DNA of 64,000 nt from Amphiura filiformis. Taxonomy: Eukaryota; Echinodermata; Ophiuroidea; Amphilepidida; Amphiuridae. Location: assembly GCF_039555335.1 (NCBI RefSeq), contig NC_092642.1, forward strand, positions 21,297,812 to 21,361,811, in the 5' to 3' direction. The notes under the pieces were generated by a model that searched no databases, was not told the origin of the DNA, and saw only the letters and a list, made by a program, of their open reading frames with translations. This document shows, in pieces, positions 1,678 through 46,576 of this stretch (position 1 is the first letter of the stretch; each line of letters begins with the position of its first letter). The translations under genes and the position numbers were made by a program.

Positions 1678-2859
1678 GATGATGGTGTGAGCCGTCGTAT
1701 CCGACAGATCTCCTTTCTCTCAAAGCTGGTTGAGGGTTTGATGTTTTCTGCGGTGGCTGACCAATCCTGCGCGGGAACGGCAGTGTCGTTGACAGTCAGG
1801 GCAGACATAATCAGTATTGCTTGGTGGAATTTGGCTTTGTGTAGCATGGCGGGTTGAGCGGGCTTCCTGGAGCGTCTTGATACGTCGCTGTTCGAATTTG
1901 CTAACACCAGCACGACAAGCGGATCGCCACTCTGGACGGGTGAGAGCCTGACTCTCCCAAGATGCAGTAGGTATGTCACAAGCTTTCAGACTGGATTTAA
2001 GGACATCCTTGAATCTCTTGTGTTGACCTCCTCGTGAACGCTGACCATTGACTAGCTCGCCATAAAACAGGGCCTTTGGTATTCTGCTATCATCCATGCG
2101 AACAAGATGCCCAGCCCACTGGAGTTGACCTTTGATGAGGATTGCCTCGATACCTTCCGATTCACATCGCTCAAGTACTGAGGTGTTTGGTACTTTGTCC
2201 TTCCATGAGATACCACAGATTTTACGAAGGCACCTTAGATGGAATTGGTCAAGTTTTCTCACATGCCGGCGATACCAGGTCCAAGAGACACTTCCATAAA
2301 GGAGGGGGGATAGCACAACTGTTCTATATACACCGAGCTTAGTACTGAGTCGGATGCCATGATCAGACCAGAGTCTGTGCTGCAACCGTCCGAAACTGGC
2401 ACTTGCTTTGCTAATTCGTGAAGTGATCTCGTCATCAATGCAGGCATTCTGTGAGAGGAAGCCACCTAGATAGCAGAACTTCTGCACAACCTTTAGTTGA
2501 TCGTCGCCGATCTTGATGACTGGGTCTATAGGTGGGCTGCCTGGCTTTGGCTGGAACATCACTTCAGTTTTCTTAATGCTTATTGTAAGACCATAGCGTG
2601 TGGCTGCTCCAGCAAAGTCGTTGAGAATGCTCTGTAGATCCTCTTCGGTATAGGCAATCAGGGCGCAATCATCAGCAAATAGTAGCTCACGCAGAAGTGA
2701 TAGAGACACCTTTGTCTTGGCTTTCAGGCGTTGAAGGTTGAAGATTCCACCATCGCTTCTAAACCTGATCATGACTCCTTCGTTACAGTCCTTGAAGGCA
2801 TCTTGAAGCATTGCAGAGAAGATGATGCTAAACAATAAAGGGGCCATAACACATCCCTG
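1678..2859 (-). mobile_element. 5'-truncated LINE, reverse transcriptase part with C2H2 finger
   Basis: The open frame runs leftward from 2859 to a stop at 1720. It begins inside the polymerase domain: the conserved QGCVMAPLLF motif lies right at the 5' edge (the first in-frame ATG, at 2847, is internal to it), followed by the catalytic LLFADDCAL box and the usual thumb-region blocks (CYLGGFLS, AGHLVRMDDSRIPKAL). A C2H2-type finger (CPDC then SHRRKH) ends the protein. The endonuclease and the N-terminal half of the polymerase are absent. The short 3' end after the stop finishes in CACCATCATC on the minus strand. The FADD box is intact, so decay is by truncation rather than by point mutation. 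The clade was not assigned. Confidence 0.9.
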
Positions 2860-3047
2860 CAGTGCAGCGAGTCAGGGAATTTCAAGTGGGTGATTATTGA
2901 TTGGCAAGTGCCATATTTGGGCATAAGTGCAGTCCACCATTCAATGTGGAGGATAGACTAGACTTTATCGATTGATTTTGCTGGAATAGTTTCTTGTTAA
3001 CCAGGAATAAGTACTGCAAAGGTCGAATCATGTTTGCTGTGCAGTAT
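2860..3047. repeat. 188-bp direct repeat, right copy
   Basis: Second copy of 1490-1677. It starts exactly where the truncated reverse transcriptase frame begins. Confidence 0.9.
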
Positions 3048-4904: not shown

Positions 4905-5660
4905 GAAATGAATGAATGATGGAAATATTACTCGAACACGTACGTGATGTTCATAATACAGCACGTACACATGTTGTGTGGGACGCATATTTTGTTTCTG
5001 CAACCGTTGGACCGCTGCAGCGCGCTGCAACCATAATGAGCCGCGATACACCTATTCTTGAGGCTTAAGGTTATTACCTATTTTAAACTGTTGTGATTTG
5101 GTAGTTCACAACATCTTACGAATGGTAGTGAGCTTTGGCAAAAACTGCATTGCTCAATTCATAGCGAGCGTGTAGAAGAATTAAAATATCACAGATATAC
5201 TTTTATAGGTGATGCGGTTCTTGAGTTACGTTGTAAAGAGGGCTGAAACAACAACACTTTTGTAAAACTTACATACCTCATTTAACAACAATAAATTAAG
5301 CAAGTTTGCAAAGTATACGATTTGTAGAATGAACTTTTGCAAAACATCAAGGTGTTATTTTTCAATAATGTATTGATCTAGACAACGAAAATCGATTTTT
5401 AGGTTGCTTCGACCAACAATACCTCGTCTACCCTTAAGATTAGCGTATTTCGGCCTATTATGGTTGCAGAAAATAATTACGTCGGGCGGTCGTAACACAT
5501 CAAAACAATCGACTTCAGTCATGTTCGACGGATTCGCTCGCATTGACGACATTGATATGCGCTGGTATTAAATATCGATTTTCTTTGTATTGCATCATCT
5601 AGGCCAAAATAAAAAGAAGACATAGGTGACTGTAAAAACTAACATTTTGTTAAAAACAAA
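4905..5660. repeat. Relic of TTAA element family A with family E inserted
   Basis: 4910-5030 (GGAAATATTACTCGAACACG) and 5440-5660 (GCTGGTATTAAATA, then CTAACATTTT) resemble parts of the long family A element at 19375-21057. The block in between matches family E. The arrangement suggests an insertion of E into an older copy of A. No coding frame survives. Confidence 0.5.
5060..5365. repeat. Dispersed repeat family E
   Basis: Matches 10655-10875 and 51523-51840. Shared words include GATTTGGTAGTTCACA and GAGCGTGTAGAAGAAT. Non-coding. Confidence 0.7.
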
Positions 5661-9864: not shown

Positions 9865-10120
9865 ATGGCAAAGGTGAGTGGCACTTTCGTCTTTCTGACG
9901 TATTTCTAATCTTGAAATTGCATTGTGTATGCCCATATCAAATTTATCTATAGATTTATGGACGAGTAAAAAATACAATTGACCTGAGAGCAAGAATAAG
10001 AAACTTGTAACACTAACTTTGCATGGGGTAAATTTATGCAAGTTGCTCAACAATGCTAATGGCTGAGGTGACCCCTAAACTAGCACACGTGCATGATGGG
10101 AGGTAAAGACCATTGATGTG

Positions 10121-10207
<87 letters not shown>

Positions 10208-13200
10208 GTTATTCGTTAGATAATCATTTACGACAAGAAACGCTTCAGAGGAAATACCCGTGAACTAACTGCGGATGTAGACAATCTGAGCTCTGTTGGA
10301 TTCAATCAAAAGACTTCTTCTATCAAAGTCATCGATAGTGTGTAAGAATTGTTTCTTCGGCTTCGTGTAAATTATATAATTATAGCTGGAGAAACACATG
10401 CCTAAGGAAACACCCCACCGCACCATTCCAGTTCTCAAACACCCACCCCACACATAATACAGACACCCCACAAACAAACCAAGGGAAAACAACCTACACC
10501 ACACACCTACCCCCCCCCCCCCACCCCACCCCAACATTTTAGGGTTGGAAAGAGTGAAATCCAGTTTCCAGTAAAATAATACATCTTAGTAGTTATAAGT
10601 TTCAAGCATCAACAATTCGAGTGTGTACAAATGCGTCTCTCCTCATTTTACCCTTAAAGTGATTCGTATTGTTTAAGATTAGCAACTATTTTAAATTGTT
10701 GCGATTTGGTAGCTCACGGCATCTTGCGAATGGTAGTGCGTTTTGGCAAAATAAATGCATTGCTCAATTCATAGAGAGCGTGTAGAAGAATAAGTCCTGT
10801 GGTTGTTGAGTTATGTTGTAAATGGGGCTGAACAACATCACTTTTGTAAAACGTACAAAACTCTTGACTCACCCTGTAGAGGGAGGGAACGTTGCTCGTG
10901 CCTATGATAACAAATTTTGAATGCGTGTTTCCCCTCAGCTGGGTTGGTTATCAGCATATAGGCTACACAGGAAACCAATATATATTAGAAGAAGGGGAAT
11001 ATCCAAAAGCGGCGAGCTGGAAAGGAGTTGATAAGGAATTGTCTTCATTGAAGAGAGTAAGTGAAGACCTGAGCGCAAAAAGACCGTAAGTCCACTTGGC
11101 CCCTCAACATGTATACACTAAAGTTACGTATAGTTTCTTAGAGTTTTATAATGTTTAATACATGTTCCGGGGTGAAAACATCATGAAAGGTTGTGAAAGA
11201 TTTGTTTTGACCCCTGAACATAAAACATTACCCAAACTATACGACACTATACGCAACTTTAGTGTATATGGTCAATTCCAGCCAAAGCGGGACAAAATTC
11301 TCTCTATGTGAACTTTCCACTTTAAAATACCATTAATAAAGGAAATCACGTTATTGATGGAGAATATCATGTCACGTCCAATGTGCTCTATGGTGTATCT
11401 GTTGAGGGGCCAAGTGGACTTCTTGCGCTCAGGTCTTAGTGTAATAGCCCTCCCTGAATCTAGAGTTATCTAGCTTGTTTGTTGTCTTGGTTGATTTTGT
11501 TCAAGTATTCTCTCGATGCGATTTTGCATTATTCTAGTGAATATTTTTAAGCATCAGTGGGACAGCAACTTTAATCTGTAATTCTTGATATCTGCTTTAT
11601 CATCCTTCTTGTGGAGCAGATTAAACTTTAGACTCTTTCCCGGTTTTAGGTCTTTTTCTCTTGTAGCATGTTGTTATACAGTCTGACAAGTTGCACCTCT
11701 GCACCGCCTATGGTGAAGATGTCACTCGGTAGGTCGTCAGTGCTTGGAACTTTATCATCTTTCATTAATTTCACTGGCAATTTCACTTCTCCTGCTGTTA
11801 TTAAAGTTTGTATACCTTCGTCGAGTCAGTAAATTAGATGTTGTACTGTAGGCCTATGTATAAAAGTATACATTTTAAAAAAGAAAATGATGTTAGGAAT
11901 CCAACTAGCATAACAGATTCCTGCAAAAAATAACAGTTTTTGAGAAAATCAATAAATGTTTGGATATCTTTACATATTATTATCACGCGAAGAAGGAATA
12001 AGTGTTTGACCCCGCACATTCAACTTACTTAAAAGTAGGTTACTTCTATTTGCTTTGTATCACTAATCACTAATAATTTGTATCAATAATGTATGCATGT
12101 TTGTCCCCGCACAGTCAACTGAATTAAAAGTAAGGTTTTTGTTTTTTTTTTTGTTTTTTACTATAATGCCTCTTTATTTTCAGGATCTATGCTCTCATTG
12201 TACACAAATCCATGCATGTAGTCTCCCACGATGTACCTCTGCACGGTTTGGAAAAAACAGTTTACAAAACAGTGGGGATTATAATAAGTAGTATGCCGTT
12301 TCTAAGCAAATCAAGCAGCCTCATGGCACTAATAGCCCTTGGGAATTACACTGACCCAGTGCCCAAAATGTTAAAAGAAATGGTCGACAGTTTCTCATTT
12401 TTGACGGGCCGAGAGGGGGGGGCAAGCGATCTTTAGCAGGCCGAGAGGGGACAAGCGATTTTGGCGGGCCGTTCAGAAATTTTAACACCCCAGGCTCATT
12501 ATTATTGCACAGCCTCTGATGGTTCAAGCACGTATCCGTAACGTAATGACCCTAATTATTTCTGATTATTCCCTTTAAAAGGGCATTTCGTGATCCACAG
12601 CCTCATCCCCCCACTTTTCTCAAAAAAAGTTGAGATTTTATATCACTGGAAACCTCTCGCTACATAATGTTTATGTACAAAATATTTCTTGCAGATTAAT
12701 TCGTTTAGCAAAGATATCGTGAAATTTGAATTTCGTTCTGGTGCACCAGAACGAAATTACAACGTATTGTCTATGGAGCAGTGTAATACACATAATCATG
12801 CATAACTCGCAAACGCAATATCGGAATCAACTGACATTTTGGGAATATGCTTTTTTCGTGGATATGTACTGAAAAATGTCATAAAAAGAGGATGCTAGGA
12901 TCACGAAATACTCCTTTAATTTGTTTCATTATCATTTGTTCTTGTGCAACAATTGGTGAATAAATATGTTTAAATGCATGTTGAACCATATTTTGTACTC
13001 GAAATTACCAAAAAAAATGACGTAGGCAATTATCGTAACAGGCTGACGATTTACGAAACCTAATAATTATGACCCTTATAGCAAAGAAAACATTAGTACA
13101 ATTTATAATTTCCTTTTTTCTTGCACAGATCAAGAGTGGGAATGTTCCTGATGGAAAGCCGGCGGTAGGTAACACAAATGTATATTTTTCATTTATACTA

Positions 13201-13366
13201 TGATGGCTTTATTAAAGCAAAATCAAACATCGACCGGCGGTCAACCGCCAGTTCCGGGTGGTTCCGTCCGGTTTCCATTGTTTAGAACAATAGCAACCGA
13301 AAGGAACCGTCCGGAGTTTTGATATCGTCCCTCTTTCTAATAATAATAATGATAATAGTAACACAT

Positions 13367-13417
<51 letters not shown>

Positions 13418-13466
13418 TAATAATAATAATAATAATAATACATAATAATAATAAGATTAATAATAG

Positions 13467-13503
<37 letters not shown>

Positions 13504-15442
13504 GTAAATGTATTTTTTCTTTTTAATGTCTCTCTCAGGGCAATATATGGGTGTTCGGGTATGGAGGGACAGCCGGTTGGTGTCCTGGGCGCATGTGGAT
13601 CGCTGGACCTTTCTCCTTGGATGGGGTGCTGCTGGGGAACTGTGGCTGGGTGGGGGCTTGGATAGGATCAATTTTTGTTGTTGTCTCCCTGCTCCCTGAC
13701 CAGCCTGGGGCCCTACCAGTGCCCTGGTCGGGGTTGGGGTCCTGCGGCCTGCATGTGGCTGGGGGTCAGCTCCGGGTGTCCCGCCTGACCCTGATCCACT
13801 CTTTCTTGCCGATTACCTTTTTAAATCTGTGTGCTAGTTTTTTACTATGTATATTATTGTTCCATCTGTATTTTTTATATGTTGTATCTTGTGTATTTTA
13901 ATGTTGGCCTTGTGCCACCTGGGCACCTTGGGAGAACAATGCCAGTGCATTGAAAGGTCAACCCAGCTTAAATAAGAATGAAATAAATAAATAAATAAAT
14001 GTGACTTTGATTGGTATTACAACAGCATAAAAATATAATAAACTTTTTGTTTTAATCAGACGGTTGCATCGCTTAAAAAGGGAGCGACATCACTCCTAGA
14101 TATATCGGGGCTGGTGTCTAACGTTGGGGTACTTACTCTCCTGTTTGGACAAGATGTACGTAACAAGTTTTTTGCACCAGTACTAGTCTTCCTCAGCATA
14201 TCAATAATATTACACTGCATTATGGCTGTTCTTCTAATAATTAAGGTAAGTTATTACCCCCCCGCACAACCACACCAACGTCACCCTCACCCCACACCCC
14301 CACACACCCCCCCCACCATTTGCTCAAAACCCTTTACACTCTTGTGGATGGGGCTCTTCGTGTTTGCTCGATAGTTAGACTATGCCATAGTCGAATTTTA
14401 TTAAAAATATGTTATGATGAACCCATTTCGTTGAACTCAAAATTATACTGATGTTTATTAAAATTAAAGTATTCAATAGTAAAATGGTCATAAAGAATTA
14501 AGAATATCAGATGATTAGTGACAATAAAAGTAATTGAATGCAACATTATCTATGGACTTTGAATTTTAAGCAGAACTTTGCCCCGGGACTTTGCTCTCTA
14601 AAAACACACTCTCAAGTATACTTGTTTATCAGTCCATTAACCACAAGTACTAAGCATGGTATAATACAAGACGCGCTAGATGTTTGGTGAGAGATTAACT
14701 TTCGCGTCAACACAAAAGCGCCGCAAATACCACAGATAGTTGTGTACGGTGTAGTTAATAGTAATGGCGCGGGCCCGGAAGATTTAAACCATAGCGAGAT
14801 ATGGGCGACCAATCACAAGGCAGATCCATTTAAAGATGCATTACATCATGGCTAATTTTAGTTAGGCCAGAAATTGGCCTAACTCTCCATAGAGTCCCGT
14901 GTTAAAAATCTTAACCGCAAGGCAAAGTCAGTAGTCCACTTGGGAAGCTAACAAACAGAGGGAGTGCGGTGACTGAAAAGATCAGATACAGATGTAAAAA
15001 TCTATCAGTTGCACACAAATCAATATAAATCAGAGTTTTATGCTTTAAAATGTAATAGCCAGAGTATGCAAAATGGGCAAGTGGACTACGGAGAAGTCTA
15101 CTCAATAGTAAGCACATAATGCTAACTATCGAGTTTTCACGGTATCACGGTATTGCTGTAACTTCCTGCTGTAAATGCGCATTGACTCGCGGAGAAAGCT
15201 ACAAAAATACTGAATTTTATTATCTTGTCTCCCCCATTTCCAGGAATGTTTATTAACTTATTTCTTCTTTATGTTTAAATCATCAGGCATACTGCAAGAA
15301 CCGGGCGGACAACCAAAAGAAACATATCATTGCGGAACTTACACTTACAATGCAAATTCTAGCCATGATTATCGTTCTATCTAATATCTTCATTGTAGCG
15401 TTTGCTGCTGTAGCCAATGAGAAACAGTCTGATGGTTGCTAG
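9865..15442 (+). CDS. Beta/gamma-crystallin-ninjurin fusion protein (six exons)
   Basis: Predicted coding exons are 9865-9873, 10220-10341, 10939-11056, 13129-13164, 14060-14245 and 15287-15442. Every intron is GT...AG and every junction keeps phase (0, 2, 0, 0, 0), giving 208 residues ending at TAG. Residues 1-83 are a full beta/gamma-crystallin domain, 84-95 a linker, 96-208 a ninjurin domain with two membrane segments (about 132-156 and 176-199). There is no signal peptide; known ninjurins also lack one and have both ends outside the cell, so the crystallin part is inferred to face outward. The three-codon first exon (Met-Ala-Lys) is like that of vertebrate gamma-crystallins. The start AACCATGG is a good translation context. 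Known ninjurins oligomerise in the plasma membrane (cell-lysis membrane rupture, adhesion); crystallin domains often bind Ca2+. That the six exons form a single transcript is inference; two adjacent genes is the alternative. Confidence 0.75.
10121..10207. repeat. (TTA)n microsatellite at a splice acceptor
   Basis: About 87 bp of TTA repeats end 12 bp before the AG (10218-10219) of the Greek key 1 exon, so the microsatellite takes the place of most of the acceptor's pyrimidine tract. Confidence 0.95.
10220..11056 (+). CDS. Beta/gamma-crystallin domain exons (two Greek keys)
   Basis: Exon 10220-10341 encodes Greek key 1: IIIYDKKRFRGNTREL, then DNLSSVGFNQKTSSIKV. Exon 10939-11056 encodes Greek key 2: YQHIGYTGNQYILEEGEYP, then the Trp corner SWKGVDKELSSLKR. 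These are the family's Y/F-x5-F/Y-x-G signatures. One Greek key per exon is the classic gene layout. A Val codon is split across the intron (GT|C), which fixes both splice sites. The Ca2+ motif of the family (N/D-N/D-x-x-S/T-S) is only half kept: NQKTSS and DKELSS, with Gln and Lys at the second position, so binding may be weak. Without splicing at 11057 the frame would add ten residues and stop at 11089 inside a MITE, which would give a free single-domain crystallin. Confidence 0.88.
10418..10536. repeat. C-rich low-complexity tract in intron 2
   Basis: CACCCCAC-type sequence ending in a run of Cs (about 10509-10522). A similar tract follows the donor of the ninjurin membrane exon at 14259-14325. 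Confidence 0.8.
10655..10875. repeat. Dispersed repeat family E
   Basis: Copy of the sequence at 5060-5365, shortened in the middle. Lies in intron 2 of the fusion gene. Confidence 0.7.
11065..11437. repeat. MITE family G beside a splice donor
   Basis: Palindromic ends GACCTGAGCGC and GCGCTCAGGTC, with inner arms GTAAGTCCACTTGGCCCCTC and its complement. Copies lie at 35954-36208 and 45760-46013. This copy sits about 8 bp downstream of the GT donor at 11057 of the fusion gene, leaving the donor intact. Confidence 0.8.
11813..11995. repeat. MITE family C relic
   Basis: Words TATACCTTCGTCGAGTCAGTAAA and, inverted, GGAATCCAACTAGCATAAC match the palindrome at 60651-60866. Lies in intron 3 of the fusion gene. 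Confidence 0.6.
12405..12472. repeat. Short tandem repeat
   Basis: Two to three copies of a unit containing GGCCGAGAGGGG and CAAGCGAT, in intron 3 of the fusion gene. Confidence 0.65.
12574..12919. repeat. MITE family F
   Basis: Terminal inverted repeats TTAAAAGGGCATTTCGTGAT and, at the right, ATCACGAAATACTCCTTTAA. Non-coding; intron 3 of the fusion gene. Confidence 0.75.
13129..15442 (+). CDS. Ninjurin domain exons
   Basis: Exon 13129-13164 is a 12-residue linker. Exon 14060-14245 begins with an amphipathic stretch (SLKKGATSLLDISGLVSN), matching the first helices of NINJ1, including the paired lysines and the LDI..L..N pattern. It then gives membrane segment 1 (APVLVFLSISIILHCIMAV). Exon 15287-15442 encodes the polar turn CKNRADNQKKH and membrane segment 2, with MIIVLSNIFIVAFAAVAN matching the family's NIFI.AF ending. 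The domain is complete and close to the usual length (about 110 residues). In known NINJ1 the amphipathic helices drive polymerisation; whether that holds with a crystallin domain fused in front is unknown. No in-frame ATG lies in the linker exon, which argues against a ninjurin-only start there. Confidence 0.87.
13340..13503. repeat. AAT/GATAAT microsatellite
   Basis: Long AAT repeats interrupted by single changes, then ATGATA repeats, in intron 4. Any long Ile/Tyr frame read through here is an artefact of the repeat. Confidence 0.95.
13520..14002 (+). mobile_element. Probable LINE 3' end with (AAAT)n tail
   Basis: A GC-rich block (13540-13800), unlike the surrounding intron, is followed by an AT-rich part and ends in AATAAATAAATAAATAAAT at 13981-14000. 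That is how several LINE clades finish. No motif of the polymerase is left, so the class is inferred from base composition and tail only. Confidence 0.45.
14259..14325. repeat. C-rich low-complexity tract in intron 5
   Basis: CCCCACACACCCC-type sequence starting 14 bp after the splice donor of the first ninjurin membrane exon. Confidence 0.75.
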
Positions 15443-17720
15443 GGCCATTTACTATTGTAAAGGTCTTTTTTATTTTGAAAGGCAAACTCTAAGAACATGA
15501 AGAATGACCGTTACACGAAGTAAACACAATCAAAGTCGTTTTTTTTTTTTGGGGGGCGGATGGTCGTCTCCAGTTTTGTAGATTAGATTTGGTTTGATAT
15601 AGGTGATATATCCTATAAGATATACCTCAAACGGTGGCCGAATTTTAAAGAAAACCAAGAAAATGAAAAATTGACAGGGTAGTTTAGAAACCTGTGTCTC
15701 TCGCTTTCGCAAAAACTCCCGTCACTCAAAACCTGTATACATATTCAAAAGGGTTCAGACCATATTTGGTATGCAGTAAACAAGTGTAACAGTCCCCATG
15801 TTTATCAAGACCCTGAAATAAATATTGGTATTGGTCCTATTTTTCAACTCAAAACCCAGAAAAGATATCTTACCCTTCCCAGAATCCTTTGCAATTATGA
15901 TACATCCCCCATCCCATTACTTTTTACAGGTTTCCTTTGTTTCCAAAGACTGGCTGAGCTAGTCAAGAAATATACATATTTTGCAAGAATCTGAATGTGC
16001 GCTACGTTCACTGAGGTATATTTCGTCACTATCGACCCATGTTGCACTAAGCAAATCAGTAAAGAAAATTGAAATGTACGAAATGCATTATGGGAAGTGT
16101 AAGATATGTTCTCTGCTCCAAGCACCGCTCTTGAGAAACCAACTTATTGAAGTTGTTCATTGTTATGCAAATAAAAAAAGGTTACATCTTAGTGTAGATT
16201 ATTCATCCAGCAGTTCAAAACATTATTTTGTAAATTAAATCTAATCCTGGAACTAAAATTTGCAACTCACTGTACTACGTTGCGCCTGAAAACATCGGAC
16301 TTCATCGGGCATCTAAATTATTTGATAATGTTGTGATGTCAGATGTTTTGACGTCAGACAGCGAGGAATGTCTCACTATACCGGGTCCCATGCGTGTGAT
16401 AACTGGAAACGGAGTCCCCCTTTACTTCCATATGGATTCTCTGACTCATCTTTCTATCTATCAAGGATAACTTCAGGATTGAAGAAGTGTTCAGTGTTCT
16501 TATAACAATGGTTGTACACTGCAGAGTTTTGAGCTTCGTTGGGCGTCTGTGTCTGCGCTCGTAGGGATTGTTTAGTTTTACCTACTACATAGGAGTCACC
16601 ACAGTCTGAGGCTGCTTCTTCAATCATGTTTTTAAAATTCTATTTTTATCTTGCATGTACATTATATGAGTTGCTCCGATAACAACGTTTGCATTGTATT
16701 TATCTGGGACAAGAGAGCACTTTACATCAGACATATCGAATTGCATTCTGAATACAAGGAATGATATCAAATAGCGTTGTTGTTTTTTTAATTCGCGATA
16801 TAATACACATTTGATGGCAAATTATTAAAAATTGATGTTTTTGATATTTAACAGTACCTATGACCTGCTTAGTGACATGCTATTTTGCATTATGATGCAA
16901 AATATTAGTTCTTATATAAAATTACAAAATATTGGTATTATGACACACGGTATAGGTGATATATAAAACGACTAATAAAATCATGTCATCATGGCATCAT
17001 GTCAAAGGTTCATTATATCCCGCATGTTTAAATTAATTAATATTTTGAGAACAATTTCTACACCCATTTAATATGTACTCAGGTGGAACCCGACTTTTTT
17101 AAATTTTCATTTCTTTTTATGTAGCAAATTCAGGTTTTTCCATTGCGCGGGGCCGCAGGGCAATACAAATTTAATGCTAACATTGAATGAACGCGGAATT
17201 TAGAATAGGCGTTTCTATTACAAACAGCGTCTGACTCTGCCTGAGGACCTAGCCTAAGTCCCATGGGCTCCAAGATTAGCTCTCCATACACAAATGAACA
17301 AATACAATGAAGGGTCACCATTGCTCTCCATACACAAATGAACAAATACAACGGAGAGTCCGGCTGCCGTGCAAATGAGCCAAGTGTCCTCTCAAGGTAT
17401 GCTCTGTGACCATACTTTTAAAGATAATTTCTAAAGTACGTGTCACCTTGCTATCAAATACACTTGATGGCTATTCAACACCACGGTGATGAGTCGTACA
17501 GTGTTCCTCTCTTATCGCGAGGCCGGCAAGAGATGACACATATCGTCTTCCCGGGCCAATAAACGTCCAATAATTACAGTAATCCATTGCATCAATATTG
17601 GCCTAATACTAAAATTATATATTGTTAAAACAATGGCAGCCAATGACTACTACAGAATATGGGAGTAGAGTCAAAATGGCCTGCCATCAGGCCAGACCCG
17701 AGGGGCAGACCCCCGGGGCA
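15443..17720. other. 3' flank of the fusion gene; repeats, no gene
   Basis: An AATAAA at 15817-15822 could be the polyadenylation signal of the fusion gene, about 375 bp after its stop, but the surrounding words look repetitive. 16695-16850 is a worn piece of MITE family B (GACATATCGAATTGCATTCT). 17270-17350 contains a short imperfect direct repeat (CTCCATACACAAATGAACAA twice). No other gene was recognised. Confidence 0.5.
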
Positions 17721-21182: not shown

Positions 21183-21439
21183 GTAAGTATAAGTATTAAA
21201 GCATCACCAATAAAATTTGGAAAACAATATGGGGGTGCGTTTGGTATGTGTAAGGGTCGTGCCTTTGGGGTGTGTGCGCGGGTGTGTGGTAGGGGTTGAT
21301 GAGGACCGTAGTGAATGTAGGTATAGTGTATTCTCTCTTAGTATTTTGATGGTGTATCACGTATATTTGCCTGATATTGCCTCGTCTGTTTGGGCCCAAA
21401 ATAAAAGAGGACATATCTGACAGTAAAAATACAGGGCAA

Positions 21440-23400
21440 TTATTGAAACAATGGCATTTGCTATTCGCCAGAATGTTAACATTAAGGGTATTCCTATTGA
21501 GGAGAGAGAGTTAAAAATTTCATTGTTAGCAGATAACTCAACTTGTTTTCTGGATGGTTCGCCTGATTCCTTTAACAACCTTTTTGAGACTTTACAAAAA
21601 TTTGCGACTTGTTCTGGCTGTAAAATTAATCTCACCAAATCTGAAGCTATTTGGATTGGCTCGAAGAAAGGTTCTTTAAATCATCCTTTTTCTGGGCATG
21701 GTCTTCTTTGGAGATCTAGTGATTTTAAAACTCTGGGTATTAATTTCTCTCTGAATTTTAAGTCAATGTTTGATCTTAATTATAAGGTTAAACTGAAACA
21801 GATTGAGGGGACCTTAAATTGCTGGCGCGCTAGAAATCTTTCTATGATTGGAAAAATTTGTGTTATTAAAACACTTCTTTTGCCTCAGCTGCTCTACCTT
21901 TTTGCAGTTTTGAGTATCAAAATTCCCAATTCTTTTTTTAAAGAACTTAACAAATTGTTTTTCAAGTTCATTTGGAATGATGGTAATGATAGAGTCAAAA
22001 GAAAATGTGTGTGCAATGATTTTTCTCTGTGTGGCCTTCGTATGATTGATCCTTATCCTTTTGCCTTGGCTCAAAAAATGTATTGGGTTAAATTACTCCT
22101 TGATAATAACTTTAACAGTTTATGGAAAACAATTGAGTTATCTGTATTAAATCGTATGTATGGTGATATTTTATGGAAATCTTATGCTCCTGAAAGTGTT
22201 TTAAATAAGCTTCATTGTACTCAATTGGCCGATTCACTCAGGACGTGGTATGTTTTCCGTGAAAATGCTGTGAACGTCAGTTTTGGCATTCCCTTTTCAG
22301 ATCTTGGGGCTTGCCAATCTTTGTGGTTTAACAGAAATATTCGATCAAAATCTAAACAGTATTTTTACTATGAAGACTGGTGTGATAAAGGTATTGTGTA
22401 TGTTGATGATTTACTTAATCCTCCCCATCCAGGTAGTAAATTGTTTGAAGAATTAATTCTTGATTTTGATATTTCTAATCGTGATAGGAAGAAATTTAAT
22501 TTCTTTATGAAAAATGTTCCCTCTTCTTGGATTGATAATCCAAACTTTGATATTTCTAGTTCTGAGACATTTAATAATCTGGTTGATAACCTTATCCAAC
22601 CTCCAAAAACTCCTCGATATGCTTATTCTATCATGATTGAGAAATGTGTTCCTGAAAAGCGGGTGTGTTTTTGGAATGAGTTTGTTACTGACCCTGTGGA
22701 CTTGGAATGGGAACAAATTCATCTTCGTAATTTTAAATGTTCAATTGATTCTCGATTTCGTTCATTTTATTTTAAAATCTTCCACAAAGCTATTGCTTTC
22801 AATGATTTTTTGTTCAAAATTAAAAGGAGGGATTCTCCGGAATGTACCTTTTGTAATAAGATGCCTGAAACAATAACCCATGTTTTTTGTGATTGTGAGG
22901 TCATCAAACCCCTTTGGGATGATATGGTCAAAACTATTAGAAATAAAGATGATATTGATTTTGATATCTCAACATTTGATAAAATTTTTGGGGTGCCTGA
23001 TGACATGTTTTTGACATATTTGTTCTTGAGTGTGAAATATTATATTTATGTATGTAAATTTCAAGGCAAATCTCCCACCAGTATTGGTCTCAAGGCTTTT
23101 ATTAAAATAAAACAGAGTATTTCATTGCTAAGAAGAAAAACAAACTCTCTTGCCACTTTCGTAAATGGAGATTTGACATCTAATGTTTTAAGTTTCAGTT
23201 TTAGCTTGTATTGTTTAGGAATGTGTAACTGTATTTTATATTTCGGGACTGATATGGTTATTTTATTATGTTACTTAGAAGTGTGACTGCATAACTTTGT
23301 ATTACTATTATGTCTAATTCTTGCTGCTTTTTTGTGATTTGTTGTTGATTTTCTTAATTTGTTTGCTGAAATCAATAAAAATTATAAACATTGAAAAAAA
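21440..23400 (+). mobile_element. 5'-truncated L1/Tx1-like LINE with poly-A tail
   Basis: An open frame from 21451 to 23286 (611 residues) starts inside the reverse transcriptase. The catalytic box reads LLADNSTCFLDG, where the family has A-D-D, so the second Asp is Asn and the enzyme should be dead. Thumb-region blocks (LGINFSLNFKS, KIKRRDSPECTFC) and the C-terminal zinc motif CTFC...THVFCDC follow. The 3' end has AATCAATAAAAATTATAAAC and a run of A. A target-site duplication AATACAGGGCAA flanks it (21428-21439 and 23401-23412), so the insertion boundaries are clear. It lies downstream of the orphan otopetrin exon. Confidence 0.88.
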
Positions 23401-24129: not shown

Positions 24130-25515
24130 ATGGAAAGCAACTCGGAAATAATTATTGTTAACAACAATAGAAATATGTCCGCAATCGTAGACCTTAAAAA
24201 TCACACAAACGGAATGGTCCACAACACTCCGATAAGTATTAAAGCATCACCATTAAAATTTGGGAAACAATGGGGGTGAGTGCGTTTTGTATGTGTAAGG
24301 GGGGTGCGTTTGGGATGTGGGGGTGTGTGGGGGTGTGTAGGGGTGGGTGTATGCGGGTGTGTGGTTGACGTGGTGTGTAGGGGGATAAGGACCGTGTGGT
24401 GAATGTGGGTGTAGTGTGTTCTCTTAGTATTTGATAGTTAACATGTTTATATTTTTTAGGTAACCTCTGATTACGAACCTCTACCGTTCCGTGACCAAGG
24501 CAACTACTATTCGGCCTTCATCCTCGCGTTCTTTCTGGGCAGTTGCGGCATTGCTATTGCATTCGCTTTATTCGCATTTCCACCAGAAGAGGAGTTCCAA
24601 GGTTTTAAACCATATCTAATTATTGTCGCTCAATGTTTTGGCAGTCTATATGCGTTATGCCTAATCATTCTTTGTCTTTGGTTTATCTTGAGGTACAAAC
24701 ACCTGATTCATACTGGCTCGATCGCGATACCAGTCCGCCGATGGGAAAATGCGCATGTGCAGTTGGTCTTATATACGGATAAGAATGGCATCCGAAAGCA
24801 CGCACAACATAGTCATTCTTCAACGTTTCAAATCTTAGCTTTTGGCATTGGAAGCATTTTGTATCTTATCAGCGAACTAGTAAAAGTTGCATCTGAAAAC
24901 ACATTGACAAGATCCAAATCTTTAAAAGTACTATCACACTTTTATGCTGTCTATTGTTTATAATTTTCCTTAAAAATTACCATGCAGTTGTGCTGAGAAA
25001 TTGCAAGCTTTTCCATTACTATATCGCAGTAATGCTTGGAGCAGAAGTATGTATATGGGTATCTGTAACGGTGAGTCCATTGTGGAGTCTCTCAGGAGCA
25101 AAAAACACAACACACAGCGGATCAGTTTATCATCATCGTGGACACTTTAACACTTCTGCAAAGCATAACGTTTCTCATCATGATCATATCAATTTTGAAA
25201 TGGGACTCGAAATTGTCCAAAGTTTCTTGCAGCCATTTTTTGTCGAGTTTCTTTCCATATCGGCTGCTTGCTTACTGGGGTTGCGGAAAACAATGCGACA
25301 TGAGTCACATTATCAACTTGAATAATGACCCAAATTGCGACAACAATACGCCTTCTGATCACTTGGAAGACTATGATACCTTACTTGATAGTAACGAGAA
25401 TTTTGCATCTTCTACTAGCTCAAGCGTGCAACAGATATCGAAAACTGACAGAGTTAAAAACATTCAAGCTACTATCATAATTATACTCTCAGGCGTCACC
25501 TAGGTGTCATTATCA

Positions 25516-29770: not shown

Positions 29771-30690
29771 GTGATTTGTAACTTCTTGAATGTCCTCAGA
29801 GGAGATTTTTCCTCACCTTCTTTTCTTTCCCTTTTTTACCCTCTTCTCCATTTCTTATGTTTCGACCTCGTCTCTTTTCCTCCCCTCTCTTGCACTTTCT
29901 ACTCCGCTGCTCTTTCTCTCTTTTCTTTTTTCTATTTTTTTCTTCCACCATCTCTCATTTTCTTGCTCATGGTCCCTGTAATGCCTTGATTACGCTACTG
30001 TCCTATACTAGCCTTGAAACAGAATAGGTAATTGTGTTTTGGGTAAGTGAAAGAAAGCCCTATCTGTAATAACTGCCAGGTATGATTATGCAGACATTGT
30101 CAATTGCCTATAGGACAACTATTCCAGAGATAACCTTCTTGCCCAAACCCAACAATAGCATTGATATCAGCTAATGCGTTTTGGGGGTTTGGTTAAAGCC
30201 TTAATGTACGATCTTTTTTCAGAATTTACCTTTATTTTTTTTTCAAACCCGATTTTTTGGCATATTTGTAATACTTACACATGTTCTAACTTAAATCTAT
30301 GAGCAAACTGTCAAATTCGCCCTATTTGTAGTAAAACGGGACGATTTTCTGTTGGTCCGACATAATATCATAATTTTTTAGATTATGATTTTATGTCGGC
30401 CACGATCACAAACCGTAGTCTCCTACTAAACTAGTTTGGTTACACTCCCTCCACATGTGGAGGAGCGTAACTAAACTGGCCGCGTATTGCTTTGAATTAA
30501 TGAACAAGTGCATGAATAAAAGAATGAATGAAAAGTTGTTTGTAGTACAACATGTTGAATGAAAGATGTTAGGATGCGATCATTAATTCTACATGTCGAT
30601 TCAAATGGATCAACGTTTTTTATGCCAAATCAATCTCTCTTGCTAGTCACTTCTTCATAGTGGTCATTTGCAACAAAAAAAAGTTATAAT
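29771..30690. other. Pyrimidine-rich tract, no gene
   Basis: 29800-29970 is a C/T-rich tract on the plus strand that opens long Ser/Phe/Leu frames by composition alone. The rest shows nothing recognisable. Confidence 0.5.
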
Positions 30691-30695
30691 CAACC

Positions 30696-31835
30696 ATGGT
30701 TCGATTGTCAGATCTGGATAAGGCTCACCTTATTGGTCAGCTTGAGGCTGTCATACCCCAGAATCAAGTTGCGGCAACTTTTGGAGTTTCCCGCAGTATT
30801 ATCTCCAAGCTAAAAGCCAAGTTTCATCAGACCGGAGATGTCAAAGAAAGACCCAAGTGGCCGCCCAAGAAAAATAAAACGGCTGCAGAAGACCGGTACA
30901 CAGTGTCATCGCCCCGATATCTTCATGGCAGAAAATGCCATGGTAGGTTGAATCCACAGCCAAGCATGGCCATTGTGTTCCCACCTGTTCAATAGTTTTT
31001 AAATGGAGGACATCCGACTAAGGCTAATGACATTAGCCTGTGACTGACCTCTGTACGGTCAGCGAGCATACATTCGCCATTGTCATCTGCTTAAAGACTG
31101 CCTCTACGATAGTCTCCTACACAGCCAGTTTGTGTCAGTCGGTCTGACACTCGTCGATCCTGTATGTTCGTGATAGCCACATACAGTCTGGCCCGAGACT
31201 ACCTCCACGAGGGTCTACGCTGCGCTATTTAAAATCTTGAATTTTGGTCACTTTTTCAGCTCAAGACGCAAGCTACTCTCTCAAGACGCAAACTAACGAC
31301 TATCATATCTGTTCAAAATATATATTCAAGTGCAAGGAACCACATCTGGTTTCTTTATACGAAATCATTTACGGGAGCTATTCATCATTTTCCACCCCGG
31401 TATCCAAAGATTTATCGTCTGAATATCAATCGTGCATGGCACATTTACGTGTGTCGATCCCGTGTATTCATTTCAGTGTCTCTGCCTTGTATAATGTAAT
31501 TATTAACCGGGCGATGTCGATGTGCGGTACATCAGGCTGGCAGCACTTTGAAACCGTTTTTAATGACACAGTGTGATATTCCTTATTCATGTTTACTGAT
31601 GCAAAAATGATGGCGCAGACAATGGCAGATTTGGCACATTTTTGTTTGAGACCTCCTTGTCTTTCACAGACAGTTACTCAACCATGGAATAAGTTATGGC
31701 CACAAACTTGGTGTCATTTTTGACAGAAAAGAACGATGTTTGTATTGATATGAAACAATATGAAAATAGATTCAAATATTTCTGATATAAAGCCGTTTTT
31801 GAAAGTTTCCAAACTTTTTTGAAGAGTTTATTTTC
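30696..31835 (+). pseudogene. Tc1-type transposase N-terminal relic, internally deleted
   Basis: The frame from ATG at 30696 reads LSDLDKAHLIGQLEAVIPQN, VAATFGVSRSIISKLKAKF, HQTGDVKERP and AAEDRYTVSSPRYL: the paired-like helix-turn-helix region of Tc1 transposases. The frame then runs into unrelated sequence. The catalytic DDE domain is absent. The probable 3' end of the element (GTTTCCAAACTTTTTTGAAG, about 31805-31824) resembles that at 18148-18167, so this is an internally deleted copy. Confidence 0.8.
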
Positions 31836-32104
31836 TAAACGGTAAATGCAAGTTGCTAAATTTGCATACAGCAGCTTCAGGTGATCTATTCCCCTGAAGT
31901 GTTAACCCTTATCTAACATCTCCTTTATCAGCCCTTATTTCATTTTCGCTTTTGCTCGGGGGCCCTGAACCCTCGGGCCCATGGACTTCGTCGTCCACCC
32001 GCTTACTACGCCTCTGCTCATCTCTTACATCTATGACGTCTTAGTATAGCAATTCAACTAACATCACTTATATCTGACACCTGTATACATTTGAAACAGT
32101 TCAT

Positions 32105-32771
32105 TAAGGGAAGGGGTATGAACGTTTGGACAGTATTTATTGTGGGACATTAGAGCACATCAGACATATCGAGTTGCATTCTGAATACGAAGAATGTCCT
32201 TCTGATATCAAATAATTTTGAATTTTTGAAATTCGCAATGTAATAATACACATTTTATGGCAAATCATTAAAATTGATATTTTGATAATTAATAGTACTC
32301 GAAGTAAACTTTATAAATCTGATAATTTATACTTAAAGTGTATGTAGGTAGAATGAAAAGCCGACGATCAATTGAAAATTTTGACCTTTCGTATTGAAGA
32401 TATGGATTTATTGTCCCAAAACACCACAAAAAATTAGGTCTTTTGGGGGGGAAATCCATATCTTCAATATGAAAGGTTCAAATTTTCAATTGATCGTCGG
32501 CTTTTCCTCCCAGCTACATACACTTTAAGAATATGTCATTAGATTTATAAAATTTACTTCGAGGACTGTTATATATCAAAAATGTGAAAAATATCAAATT
32601 TTAATAATTTGTCATAAATGTGTATTATATCGTGAATTTCAAAAATGAAAATTATTTGATATCATAAAGACATTCTGTGTATTCCGAATACAATTCGATA
32701 TGTCTGATGTGCTCTCATGTCCCACAAAAAATACTATCGAAACGCTTAAAACGCTCATTCCAGATCCCTTA
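32105..32771. repeat. MITE family B
   Basis: Long palindrome with TTAA at both ends. Arms carry GACATATCGAGTTGCATTCT and, inverted, AATTCGATATGTC; inner arms carry CGACGATCAATTGAAAATTT. TTAA flanks suggest a piggyBac-type origin. Downstream flank of OTOP-a. Confidence 0.8.
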
Positions 32772-32953
32772 AGCTTAATCCCAAAATTGCAATATCCTAA
32801 AACATTTACTCAGCGTAAGTAAATCATTGCTCAAAAATAACAGATATTATAAATAATTGTCACTTGACATTAATATCCTCAAAATATCCAAAATAATAAT
32901 GTAAGCTGGTATATTTTATCTGCCCGAAAGGAAGAACATATTACCAAGTTCTA

Positions 32954-35260
32954 TTATATTTCTTTACAAGAACGTAGTGTATTGTAAGCGAGAACTGCCG
33001 AATGAAAAGAGTAAATACTACTTGCTGGCAAGAAAATAAGTAACAATACCTTGGATTGAAAGTACCCAAAGCTTGCCAGGAACTCGGGACATTCAAGTTC
33101 AATATGTGTGTCGTTTTCGAGCCATTTATGAAACGCTGCGACACACAACCAGTTGCCTGTATTAAGTGCGACGAGATAAATTAAAGTTAAGTATGACGTA
33201 GTTGGGATTCTTTGTTTCGACCACTCCCAGCTTTGGATTGTCATGATAAATTGAGTTTGTGCCCATACCCACAGAGAACTACACACCCAGAAGAATAACG
33301 TAAAAGCAAACATCATCGAGTCTTCTTCCTGAATAACAAAGGTCGAAATTAGCGCCACAATTCGTAGCAGATGATACACAAATAAAGCAGCAGACATGAT
33401 GAGTAAAAGAATATCACTGCTAGACAGAGGCTTAGCAGGAATAGTACCCAATCTACTGTCGTGCAATTTGTAAAGCGAAGTAATAAGCAAAATAATCAAA
33501 GGTACAAACACAGCAATTGGTATGATTGTAGCTAATATGATCTGGCTATTTGCTGTTAAAACGTTGTTAGATATTGTTATTATTGATGCTGGAGGCAACA
33601 CGGTCTGTGCAGTAACATAGAGAACCACTAAGACAACCGATAAAGTTACCACCAAGTACTTTTTACATTTATGCGTTCTTATAAATCCGCATGTGCTTCT
33701 TTCGGAAATTGTGCCGCGTTCTGCGTTTCTTAATATGGATCCATAGTCTTGCGTATGATCTTCAATGGTTTCTGTAGGTGTCTCGTTTGTATCAGTGCTA
33801 TATTCGTAGTCAGAACAAGAGAACATATCTTCACTCATTGTATTCCATAATGCTATCACGCAACCTATTGATATGGTCAAGAATTCGATGTAAAATGGTT
33901 GAAGGAAACCTTCACTAATCATGAGAGTCAGCTCTAGGGGATCGTCTTTCGAGGTATTACTTGGAATTTTCCCAACTGTCCAAAATGGACTGATCGTGAC
34001 GAAAACCCACACACATACCTGTGCTCCAATGATACCCGCGATGGTATAGTGAAATAATTTACAGCTCTTCAAAGCCGCTCCGTGGTATATCAGAAGAAAT
34101 ATGATGAAAATAATGTAGAAAACTAGGAGACTGCAACTGTTTAAGATTTGAATTGCGTTTATAAGGTCTGGATATTCTGTAGCAACTTTCACTATTTGAG
34201 TTATCAAATAGCAAATATTCCCGACACCAAAAACGATAATTTGAAAGGGTGATGTGTGACTTTCAGAGACCCTTTTGTTGTGATTAGAATCAAAGCCGAG
34301 AGATTGTCTTCCTGTTATTACCAATCCTTTCAAAATAAGGCCTTGGTAGTTCCAGGACAACCAGAAACAAATACATGCTAGAAAAATAGCGTAAAGACTT
34401 CCCAAACATACAAACACGCCAAAGAAATGGTATCTGAAACGAAAAGTGTTTGATGATGATGAAGTAAATAACAAAATAGCGAAAGAAATGGCGACTCCAA
34501 AGCTTCCAAGATAAAATGTGAGTATCAATGGTGTGTATGACATACCACCGCCTTTTATGTGAATTCCGTTGTAGTAGCGTATTTCTCGCCGTCTGAAATG
34601 ACAATAAAAATAATTATACTCGAATGTAATGTTCAACAAAAGGGCAAGTACATCACAACGTCAAAATTCGATTGACATTATGTGTAAATATTTTCTACGC
34701 TTTTCTCTGATCCAGTTCCTCATAAAAAGTTGGACTTGGATCTTTGTGTCAAAAATACACCATTATATTTTTAGAAATTTTTGATCGATGTAAATAACTA
34801 ATTAACAAAACAATAAGCTTAACTTTATATGTGCTGAGGGTACGTGGTGTCATTTCTGCCAATTATGGCATATTTAACAAATAAAATTAAATTACCATAT
34901 CAGGATTGGTCGTCTGTGCAAATGCAAAATATGTAATTACCAATAAGCTTAAATGGCTTTTAACTCAGTCAAAACGTTTTCTTATTACATGTAATACGTT
35001 TAAACTTTTTAAACTGGTTTGCTTCTGTCGAATTATGTAACTATGTAACACCAATAAGTATTTAACTTTCCAACTTTCCCGTTATTGATGGCTTTTCGTC
35101 TATAAAAAATGTTACATGTACATATTTAACACTACAGGTAAAATTTGACAAATCTAAGCTTACTTATCTCTCACACAGCATATTATTGTATGTGTTTCTA
35201 GTCTCAACTTACCAAAGTATCACTAAGCCTTCTGTTTGAAACTCGAAGCGTCGACGACAT
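32954..35260 (-). CDS. Otopetrin-like proton channel OTOP-a, copy 1
   Basis: Two coding exons: 35213-35260 (MSSTLRVSNRRLSDTL, donor GTAAGT) and 32954-34592 (acceptor CATTTCAG), joined in phase 0 into about 561 residues. Twelve membrane segments: about 37-58, 73-95, 131-152, 169-187, 194-217, 242-265, 326-345, 366-388, 408-435, 441-466, 480-501, 525-549; a 60-residue polar loop separates the two six-TM halves. Family hallmarks: LFHYTIAGIIGAQVCVWV (TM5), LQPFYIEFLTISIG (TM6), VWAQTQFIMT (TM10), and LPASSIYSFHS (TM12), the family's LP..IFYRFHS block. An extra T in the T-run 34553-34556 shifts the frame between the exon start and TM1; the other copy lacks it, so sequencing error is likely. Known otopetrins are proton-selective channels at cell surfaces. 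Family identity is firm, orthology to OTOP1/2/3 is not. Confidence 0.87.
34593..35212 (-). other. OTOP-a intron, copy 1
   Basis: A 620-bp intron with GT at 35211-35212 and AG at 34593-34594 on the minus strand. Plain AT-rich sequence; nothing else recognised. Confidence 0.75.
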
Positions 35261-35953
35261 ACTTTCGTCCGGAGTTTTATGTAGTTCAATTTTAAATTGC
35301 TTTCAAATTTCGAAGGTTTGACGAAGATAAGTGTGAGAATTATGTTTAAATTACTATATTTTGGATTTATATCTAGCGTATTTTTCCAGAGGTTTCAAAG
35401 CGCTGTAACTTCGCCGCCACTGAGAAAAAGTAATCACTAGCAGCGAATTAGAATAAGATCAAAGCCTAATAATAACGCATAACTTGTATTATGTTCCCCT
35501 TTTTATTCTATAGGCTTAAGTCCAAAATTCTCTATTTTAGACCAATCTTTTATACGACGTGGTTGCTATCGCTACGGATCGGATTTCCCCGATAATTAAG
35601 TCTTTTAGTTCCCTGTTCTATGTTTGTTTATTCATATATTGTTCCGCTTTTGTTATTCCCGTAGCACGTGTTGTTGTGCTTTTATTGTAGTCAATATTAC
35701 CTCAGCCAATTATTTAAGTTTCTTCTTCATTGTGTCCTACGACCTCCGAAACTAAATAATGCATATACGAGTTTCTGGTGTTTATGTTTATTATTATTTC
35801 TTTTTATTTCTATTCATATTTGTGATAATTACTCTATACAATATAAAGTATGGATTGAAATACACGTGCAGTGTAAAAGATAATGAACTAAACAAACTAA
35901 TGTTCTTTGAAAACACGCATTAAAGGTGGGTGGTCAGATTTTTTCACATTTGA

Positions 35954-36208
35954 TGACTTGAGCGCAAGTAGACCGTAAGTCCACTTGGCCCCTCAACATG
36001 TATACACTAAAGTTGCGTATAGTTTCGTATATTTTGGTAATTTTTTATACATGTTCAGGGGCCAAAACAAATCTTTCACAACCTTTCATGATGTTTTCAC
36101 CCTAGAACATGTATTAAACATTGTAAAACCCTAAGAAACTATACATAGTTTTAGTGTATACATTTTGAGGGGCTGAGTGGTCTTACGGTCTCCTTGCGCT
36201 CAGGTCTT
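35954..36208. repeat. MITE family G
   Basis: Ends ACTTGAGCGC and GCGCTCAGGTC; internal CGTAAGTCCACTTGGCCCCT. Same family as the element beside the splice donor at 11065. Confidence 0.75.
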
Positions 36209-36523
36209 CATCTATGTTTTCTATATTGCATTATTGAGGCTTCCATTAAAACAATCTGTTTGCAAGTAAATAAACGAATGTTCTTTGAAAACACGCATTA
36301 AAGGTGGGTGGTCAGAGTTTTATCTTGCATAATTGAGGCTTTCATTAAAACCATCTGTTTGCCACTTTTTGATATGAGAATCAAAAACGTGCAAATCAAT
36401 GACCATAGAATAGTATATACTTCTGGTGGCGGTTACCGCTTTTTACCACGTTTTTATTCACGACGTCTAATCGAAATTTATCACAGGGGAAGGATATCGG
36501 AGGCTGTCAATGGGCTATTCCAG

Positions 36524-36753
36524 TAATCCACACTACCCCTGTGGAAGATTTTGGAAATATCTTCCACAGGGTTTTTCAAATGTAACTGGTCATAGTTAAT
36601 CATTACCCCCCTTTTTGTATTGTTTTACCTATTATCTTCCACAACTGGAGTGAGTATTTTAAATGGAAGTTACCCAATTGTCTATTCTATTCAAGATTGA
36701 TACTCCCTCTGTTTCAGACTTTCGCTAAATCTTCCACAGGGGTAGTGTGGATT
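36524..36753. repeat. MITE with CCACACTACCCCTGTGG ends
   Basis: Terminal inverted repeats AATCCACACTACCCCTGTGG and CCACAGGGGTAGTGTGGATT. Duplicate at 46327-46568. Confidence 0.8.
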
Positions 36754-36763
36754 TTAAATGGAA

Positions 36764-38455: not shown

Positions 38456-38845
38456 TAGCCCAATCTGATCACACACCTTTAATGATGATATCGCTTATAT
38501 CTTTTGGAACTGGTTGTTCAGTTTGAATGGTGTTTTCTGTCTTCCGTTTTCCGACTTCCGACTGATTTTACTTGATCGTATCACATATATAGAACGTTTC
38601 AAGAACTAGCCCGTTCATTTAGTTCATCACGGGTCTTAACTTCTTTGCCTTTATTACACATTTTGCGACTCACCCTAGTAAACAGTGGTAAAGATCACAT
38701 ATATAGAACGTTTCAAGAACTGAACCGTTCATTTAGTTCATCACGGGTCTTAACTTCTTTGCCTTATTGCACATTTTGCGAATCACCCTAGTAAACAGTG
38801 GTAAAGATAGGGTTTGTTCCTAACATCACTTATATCTGACACCTG

Positions 38846-39042
38846 CACTGCAAAAAAATATTTCTCAACATTGAGTGAAAAGGTCACAACTCAACAGTTG
38901 AGTAACAAAATACTCAACATTGAGCTCATATAGGTCACAACTCAACAAATGAGTAAAAAATTACTCAACATTGAACTCATGTTCAGTAATTTTTACTCAA
39001 CTGTTGAGTTGTGACCTTTTTACGCAATATTTTTTTGCAGTG
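38846..39042. repeat. MITE family J (CACTGCAAAA ends)
   Basis: Ends CACTGCAAAAA and TTTTTGCAGTG; inner arms AGGTCACAACTCAACAGTTG and complement. Duplicate at 48657-48850. Confidence 0.8.
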
Positions 39043-39389
39043 TGTATACATTTGAAACAGTTCCTAAAGTTTAAGTTTTATATAATAGGGGTACAAACAT
39101 ACAAAAACTCTTAATACAAAGTGAACGTATTGTCTTTACTCTCAATTTTCACATTATATAATAGGATTCAGATATAACACATATTATGTAGACCTACAGG
39201 TTTAATGCTTAATCCCAAAATTGCAATATACCAAATTATTTGCTCAGCGTAAGTAAGTCATTGCTCAAAGATAACAGATATTATACACAATTGTCACTTG
39301 ACATTAATATCCTCAAAATATCCAAAATAATAATGTAAGCTAGTATATTTTATCTGCCCGAAAGGAAGAACATATTACCAAGTTCTATT

Positions 39390-41040: not shown

Positions 41041-41112
41041 CTGAAATGACAATAAAACGATATACTTCATGTTGAATGAGGCTGATCAGTATGAATTAAG
41101 GAACTAATTCGA

Positions 41113-41548
41113 TTAAGGAATCGGATAGCAAGTTTTGCACAGTATTTTTAGTGTGGGACCCGAGAGCACATGACAAATATCGAATCGAATTGCATTCTGA
41201 ATACAAAGAATGCCCTTCTGATGTCGAATTATTTTGATTTTTTTTTAAATTCGAGATATAATAAATTTTATGGCATATTATTAAAATTGATATTATGTTT
41301 TTGATATTCTAACAGTCCTCAAAGTAAACTTATAAATCTAATCTTAAAGTGTAGCTGGATGAAAAGCCGACCATTAATTGAAAATTTTGAACTACCTTTT
41401 TTTTGGTGTTTTGAGGAAAAATCTATATCTTCAATACGAAAGGTCATTTTTAGCTACATACACTTTTTAAAGTACATATTATTAGATTTATACAATTTAC
41501 TTGAGGACTGTTAAATTTCAAAAATATCAATTTTAATCAGTTGCCATA
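41113..41548. repeat. MITE family B, cut by the gap
   Basis: Left part of the same element that is complete at 50923-51523. The sequence stops at the Ns in the middle of the right arm. Confidence 0.75.
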
Positions 41549-46568: not shown

Positions 46569-46576
46569 TAAATGGA

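Follow-up and report, generated by a model that had tools for sequence, protein, structure and literature searches.

Does one gene join a beta-gamma-crystallin domain to a ninjurin domain, and if so, what might its product do? The question is raised by positions 9865-15442 of a 64,000-nucleotide stretch of the Amphiura filiformis genome (contig NC_092642.1, positions 21,297,812 to 21,361,811; this whole 64-kb stretch is referred to here as the window), where exons for the two domains follow each other on the + strand. Our analysis favors, with fair assurance, a single fused gene, in which the crystallin and ninjurin exons would be transcribed and spliced together. We also favor, somewhat less firmly, the view that this gene encodes a 208-residue membrane protein that carries its crystallin module on the cell surface and has a role in adhesion and in the restraint of polymerization. 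The exons of the gene model, in window coordinates, are as follows:

9865-9873, + strand: exon 1, the start codon and two further codons (MAK)
10220-10341, + strand: exon 2, the first of the two beta-gamma-crystallin Greek keys
10939-11056, + strand: exon 3, the second Greek key, as far as SSLKR
13129-13164, + strand: exon 4, 36 nt, phase 0-0, encoding the 12-residue linker IKSGNVPDGKPA (residues 84-95)
14060-14245, + strand: exon 5, ninjurin alpha1, alpha2 and the first transmembrane helix
15287-15442, + strand: exon 6, the ninjurin loop, the second transmembrane helix and the stop codon

All five introns of this model are GT-AG, and the phases after exons 1-5 are 0, 2, 0, 0 and 0. The coding sequence amounts to 627 nt with the stop codon and specifies 208 residues with no internal stops, which bears out a sequence-only reading of this DNA that had described six GT-AG exons in one direction running from ATG to stop without a phase break. 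The frame is still kept if exon 4 is skipped. As read from the sequence, the context of the start codon (CAACCATGG) is good, and another in-frame methionine occurs further upstream. Past the stop codon, the first candidate polyadenylation signal is:

15817-15822, + strand: AATAAA, with the next AATAAA at 16170; on its own, the hexamer is frequent in this AT-rich DNA

Both domains were identified in the predicted protein using hmmscan against Pfam. PF00030 (Crystall) aligns with residues 3-84 (E 1e-25, 90.1 bits against a cut-off of 25, profile positions 1-82 of 82) and takes in both Greek keys, and PF04923 (Ninjurin) aligns with residues 99-196 (E 4.6e-11, 43 bits against a cut-off of 26, profile positions 6-102 of 102). 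The two Greek keys, the 12-residue linker and the complete ninjurin domain named in the sequence-only reading are all present, and the order of crystallin, linker and ninjurin within a single gene is supported at the sequence level. No second copy of either the crystallin or the ninjurin domain was detected by tblastn in the window. Extra crystallin exons upstream were considered and rejected, as tblastn found none in the window.

Splice sites were scored with weights from textbook human frequencies, and each site was ranked against all GTs or all AGs on the + strand of the window. The donor of exon 1 (AAG|GTGAGT) falls in the top 0.05% of GTs. The acceptor of exon 3 is in the top 0.87% of AGs and its donor (AGA|GTAAGT) in the top 2.75% of GTs, the corresponding ranks being 0.58% and 0.75% for exon 4 and 6.7% and 0.08% for exon 5. 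Exon 2 has a weak acceptor (top 20% of AGs) and a weak donor (top 13% of GTs), and the acceptor of exon 6 is also weak (top 24% of AGs). The joins at these weak sites of exons 2 and 6 are fixed by homology and not by signal strength. Exon 4 scores highest among the open cassettes with phase 0-0 and a length of 24-250 nt that lie in the region 11057-14059, between the crystallin and ninjurin halves; two of 300 dinucleotide shuffles produced a cassette as good, and none of the 38 other 3-kb tiles into which the window was divided contains one. Exons 3, 4 and 5 have mutually consistent phases. Exons 4 and 5 contain no methionine ahead of the ninjurin core, where the first is residue 150, and exons 4-6 as spliced therefore require upstream coding sequence.

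The strongest competing explanation is that two same-strand neighbors have been merged, such that a single-domain crystallin gene ends after 11056 and a ninjurin gene starts within 11057-13128, most specifically with a first exon at 13069-13164. Three features of the DNA between the two halves bear on this explanation:

13069-13128, + strand: an unspliced in-frame extension 5' of exon 4 that contains an ATG and gives MTLIAKKTLVQFIISFFLAQ; among the versions of the two-gene explanation, a start here is the most specific
12097-12129, + strand: MFVPAQSTELK, the best spliced first-exon candidate for a separate ninjurin, at chance level
11062-11437, strand not assigned: an inverted-repeat element resembling a miniature inverted-repeat transposable element (MITE), which starts about 6 nt inside intron 3, past the exon 3 donor, and holds a stop at 11087-11089

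Several observations weigh against a fused gene. A separate ninjurin could begin at the in-frame ATG at 13069, three of the ten splice sites score weak (those of exons 2 and 6 given above), and the merging of neighboring gene models is a documented prediction artefact (PMC3927609). Reading through exon 3 adds 10 codons before the stop at 11087-11089, and AATAAA hexamers are present in the gap between the two halves. Set against these points, the strength of the AG ahead of 13129, ranked as above, would be fortuitous within a single exon spanning 13069-13164, and we rate the first exon at 13069 lower because the hydrophobic end of its extension is the T-rich polypyrimidine tract of this strong acceptor. 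Spliced first-exon candidates occur at about the rate of shuffled sequence: one candidate has a donor score of at least 6.5, as strong as that of exon 3, a count that 100 of 200 shuffles reach (shuffle mean 0.83), and five have a donor score of at least 3, a count reached by 86 of 200 (shuffle mean 4.49). Because the stop met on read-through of exon 3 belongs to a repeated element, an ancient gene end at this point is unlikely. The arms of this element (11064-11109 and 11400-11437) are 80% alike, and one further MITE-like element lies at 35951-36210 (pieces 87-90% identical), with a counterpart at 45760-46015 in a repeated 9.6-kb block. The phase agreement of exons 3, 4 and 5 also speaks against two genes. 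The two-gene explanation is thus weakened, and we consider it unlikely, at roughly one chance in a handful.

Searches for relatives of the fusion also count against it, in that a protein database search returned no match at E<=10 either for the fusion protein (393 candidates) or for the ninjurin region (105 candidates). The word filter of this search needs several shared 5-residue words, and the absence of relatives is for this reason weak evidence. When an alignment of the fusion with fragments of beta-B2 crystallin and NINJ1/2 was used as the query, 1820 matches were obtained among 7990 candidates scored, which indicates that the database includes animals; among the 120 matches listed, nearly all are named vertebrate beta-crystallins, each with PF00030 and none with PF04923. 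In the open-licence literature, none of the listed papers that contain both ninjurin and crystallin seemed, by title and the start of the abstract, to describe a joint protein, and ninjurin did not co-occur with 'crystallin domain'. Ninjurin and sea urchin occur together in the preprint of a placozoan paper, the published version of which names ninjurin once, as a comparison, and crystallin nowhere.

Returning to the proposed fused gene, the solved structure closest to the whole protein is beta-B2 crystallin (E 2.1e-28), which shares both Greek keys, at 37% and 40% identity to its two domains. As in beta-crystallin genes, there is one Greek-key motif per exon, here exons 2 and 3 (PMC3554465). 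Unlike the beta-gamma-crystallins, the predicted protein has one crystallin domain and not two, and this domain is joined to a membrane protein. AIM1/CRYBG1 is similar in having crystallin motifs within a larger protein, one motif per exon and short linker exons, but it has six domains and a trefoil domain, and no ninjurin part is described for it there (PMC3554465). Microbial crystallins bind Ca2+ through the motif N/D-N/D-X-X-S/T-S (PMC3551895, PMC8639718). This canonical motif has no match in either Greek key here, and it was likewise not seen in the aligned stretches of beta-B2. The cognate sites read NQKTSS (at 32) and DKELSS (at 75); position 2 is lost in both, and a canonical Ca2+ sensor is therefore not supported. 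The crystallin domain is probably not such a sensor, and the Ca2+-responsive outer domain put forward in the sequence-only reading is not borne out; weak, non-canonical Ca2+ binding is possible.

Ninjurins are a family of proteins that rupture cell membranes or mediate adhesion between cells. With exons 4-6 as the query, the closest solved structures are NINJ1 (E 1.1e-8) and then NINJ2 (E 3.2e-7), the NINJ1 and NINJ2 structures being PDB 8uip, 8cqr, 8sza, 8szb and 9bia. The likeness consists of two hydrophobic helices after two helix-forming segments, with identity at 35 of 99 aligned residues for NINJ1 and 29 of 100 for NINJ2. In NINJ1, a salt bridge between K45 and D53 joins subunits in filaments (PMC10307626), and this polymerization pair is kept here as K101 and D109. 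Mutation of any of eight NINJ1 sites (K45, D53, I84, Q91, G95, T123, I134 and A138) lowers lysis and filament formation (PMC10307626). Four of the eight (K45, D53, I134 and A138) are identical in the predicted protein and four differ (I84L, Q91H, G95A and T123Q). NINJ2, which is reported to be non-lytic (PMC12547243), matches NINJ1 at 7 of the 8 sites and also keeps the K45-D53 pair; the eight sites therefore fail to separate NINJ1 from NINJ2, and conservation of the pair does not show rupture activity. Further differences from NINJ1 are K44L, A47G, L56G and F117E. A mutant of NINJ1 A47 is non-functional in cells and still forms filaments (PMC10307626); the position is Gly here and Val in NINJ2, and the kink residue L56 is Gly112. 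NINJ1 F117 corresponds to Gln103 in NINJ2, a change blamed for distorted filaments (PMC12547243). The equivalent here is Glu174, which is not hydrophobic and is polar like the NINJ2 Gln, in a register made uncertain by a one-residue alignment gap about 12 columns off.

These data bear on a second explanation, in which the gene is fused and Ca2+ or a ligand acts through the crystallin domain as a gate to set off membrane rupture. The odds assigned to the explanations overlap, as this one and a reversed topology discussed below share the fused gene with the explanation that we prefer. Both domains are present, the K45-D53 pair is kept, and BmALP1, part of beta-gamma-CAT of the toad Bombina maxima, combines a crystallin domain with a pore former (PMC6370762). 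The comparison with a frog crystallin-pore former, made in the sequence-only reading, is right in kind, since a beta-gamma-crystallin/aerolysin-type pore former is described (PMC10206775, PMC6370762). Like the predicted protein, BmALP1 has an N-terminal beta-gamma-crystallin module and a membrane-permeabilizing module; it differs in having a secreted aerolysin-type pore part in place of ninjurin, in working with a trefoil factor (PMC6370762) and in having two crystallin domains (PMC10206775). The authors propose a stabilizing or regulatory role for its crystallin domain, which did not bind gangliosides (PMC6370762). This last result, the NQKTSS and DKELSS sites in place of a canonical motif, the retention of just four of the eight lysis-critical residues and a polar Glu174, as in non-lytic NINJ2, all argue against a gated trigger, and we regard it as rather improbable. 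A frog-type aerolysin relative was also rejected as a candidate at this locus, the aerolysin family not being among the nine Pfam families listed up to E 1.

The orientation of the protein in the membrane separates a third explanation from ours. Hydropathy has main peaks at residues 138-156 (2.88) and 181-199 (2.79) and a weaker one at 106-125 (1.69), within the alpha1/alpha2 segment, and the alpha1 and alpha2 equivalents have moments of 0.50 and 0.28 compared with 0.30 and 0.20 in NINJ1. By hydropathy and alignment alone, the protein has the layout of two helices after alpha1/alpha2. As read from the sequence, the most basic segment is the loop joining the main peaks, KAYCKNRADNQKKHIIAE. According to the positive-inside rule, a basic loop lies in the cytosol. 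The loop would therefore be cytosolic and both ends of the protein outside, with the crystallin module on the cell surface, and this arrangement fits that of NINJ1, which is predicted to have both termini outside (PMC10307626). Residues 1-95 include no strongly hydrophobic stretch (best 19-residue mean 0.29) and none that resembles a signal peptide; in an outward topology, the folded domain would have to traverse the membrane with no such peptide. Moreover, crystallins are usually cytosolic. Both points tell against the outward topology and favor its reverse, with the crystallin domain in the cytosol and the ninjurin half as a membrane anchor. The basic loop and the predicted NINJ1 topology stand against the reverse, and it appears quite improbable to us.

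With the termini outside, it is hypothesized that a folded crystallin module takes the place of the N-terminal ectodomain, which in NINJ1 and NINJ2 is disordered. The module would lie on the outer face of the cell, some 15 residues ahead of the helix (alpha1) through which NINJ1 subunits are joined in filaments. There it could serve as a surface contact or adhesion module, could also restrain polymerization by crowding and could be shed by proteolysis, like fly NijA. Ninjurin ectodomains are described as highly variable in length, as mediating adhesion and as being cut by matrix metalloproteinases in flies and mammals (PMC11664169), and the N-terminal region decides between NINJ1 and NINJ2 activity (PMC12547243). 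It is on these grounds that we propose a sheddable module for adhesion and regulation. Drosophila NijA also has a large N-terminal extracellular part, which makes up half of the protein and is cleavable by Mmp1; it was compared by description only, and a crystallin domain is not mentioned in the portion of that source consulted (PMC11664169). The NINJ1 filament repeat is 20.95 Å (PMC10307626) and an 84-residue globule has a calculated diameter of about 28 Å, and adjacent modules would therefore crowd unless staggered. Two considerations weaken the proposed restraint. Globules of this size, each held by a short linker, might simply stagger and cause no block, and NINJ1 can form filaments without its first 38 residues (PMC10307626), so that an N-terminal domain need not affect polymerization.

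The weakest explanation, an assembly or scaffolding artefact joining two loci at a microsatellite such as the (AAT)n tract at about 13338-13510 in intron 4, draws on the simple repeats in introns 1 and 4 and on a possibly imperfect assembly (a 9.6-kb block is duplicated around a 200-N gap elsewhere in the window), but with no N run within 9865-15442, the sole one in the window being at 41549-41748, and with phase agreement across the intron 4 repeat as a one-in-three coincidence under the artefact, it can practically be set aside.

The duplicated block occupies 31937-41548 and 41749-51381, at 98.3% identity, on either side of the gap. It ends exactly at the gap and may therefore be a second haplotype at a scaffold join and not a tandem duplication. 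Related long open reading frames (ORFs) on the - strand, at 32954-34660, 39390-41085, 42771-44369 and 49192-50895, are linked by 90-98% DNA identity, and by eye related ORFs also occur at 57715-59268 (- strand) and 24460-25503 (+ strand). They encode up to 568 amino acids with, apparently, many membrane helices. Three of them matched no Pfam family up to E 5, one had no match in the PDB up to E 10, and together they are possibly a membrane protein family outside Pfam coverage. Remains of long interspersed nuclear element (LINE)-type retrotransposons with RVT_1 and zf-RVT matches lie at 1723-2871 (- strand) and 21427-23283 (+ strand); such matches, like the presence of spliced genes, are in keeping with an animal genome. 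At 30690-30992 (+ strand), a 101-amino acid ORF matches the helix-turn-helix family HTH_23 (E 8e-4, under the curated cut-off) and is perhaps a transposase remnant. The stretch 17406-17505 matches U3 small nucleolar RNA (RF00012, 41 bits, gathering threshold 34) over 100 bases of sequence compared with a 219-position model, and it is probably a shortened copy. Within the introns of the gene, the (ATT)n array at about 10122-10207 (intron 1) and the (AAT)n array in intron 4 are long and mutually complementary, which might allow them to base-pair in the pre-mRNA in the region of exons 2-4. Intron stretch 10673-10863 has diverged copies at 5065-5279 and 51520-51737, and intron stretch 11802-11973 has one at 60676-60868, each about 75% identical, which makes these stretches additional repeats.

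The N-terminal region of NINJ1, when given to NINJ2, confers rupture activity by a mechanism described as unclear (PMC12547243). More tentatively than the adhesion module proposed above, we suggest that the crystallin domain might be a built-in folded gate beside the polymerization helix, blocking filaments until it is bound, unfolded or shed, in which case the protein itself, and not the ionic imbalance that follows gasdermin pores, would trigger rupture from the outside. If the fused surface protein is real, it would be a natural ninjurin with an N terminus of known fold, and thus a ready-made test of ninjurin N-terminal function. It would also add a case, alongside the aerolysin-type protein of the toad, in which a crystallin domain is coupled to a module that acts on membranes.

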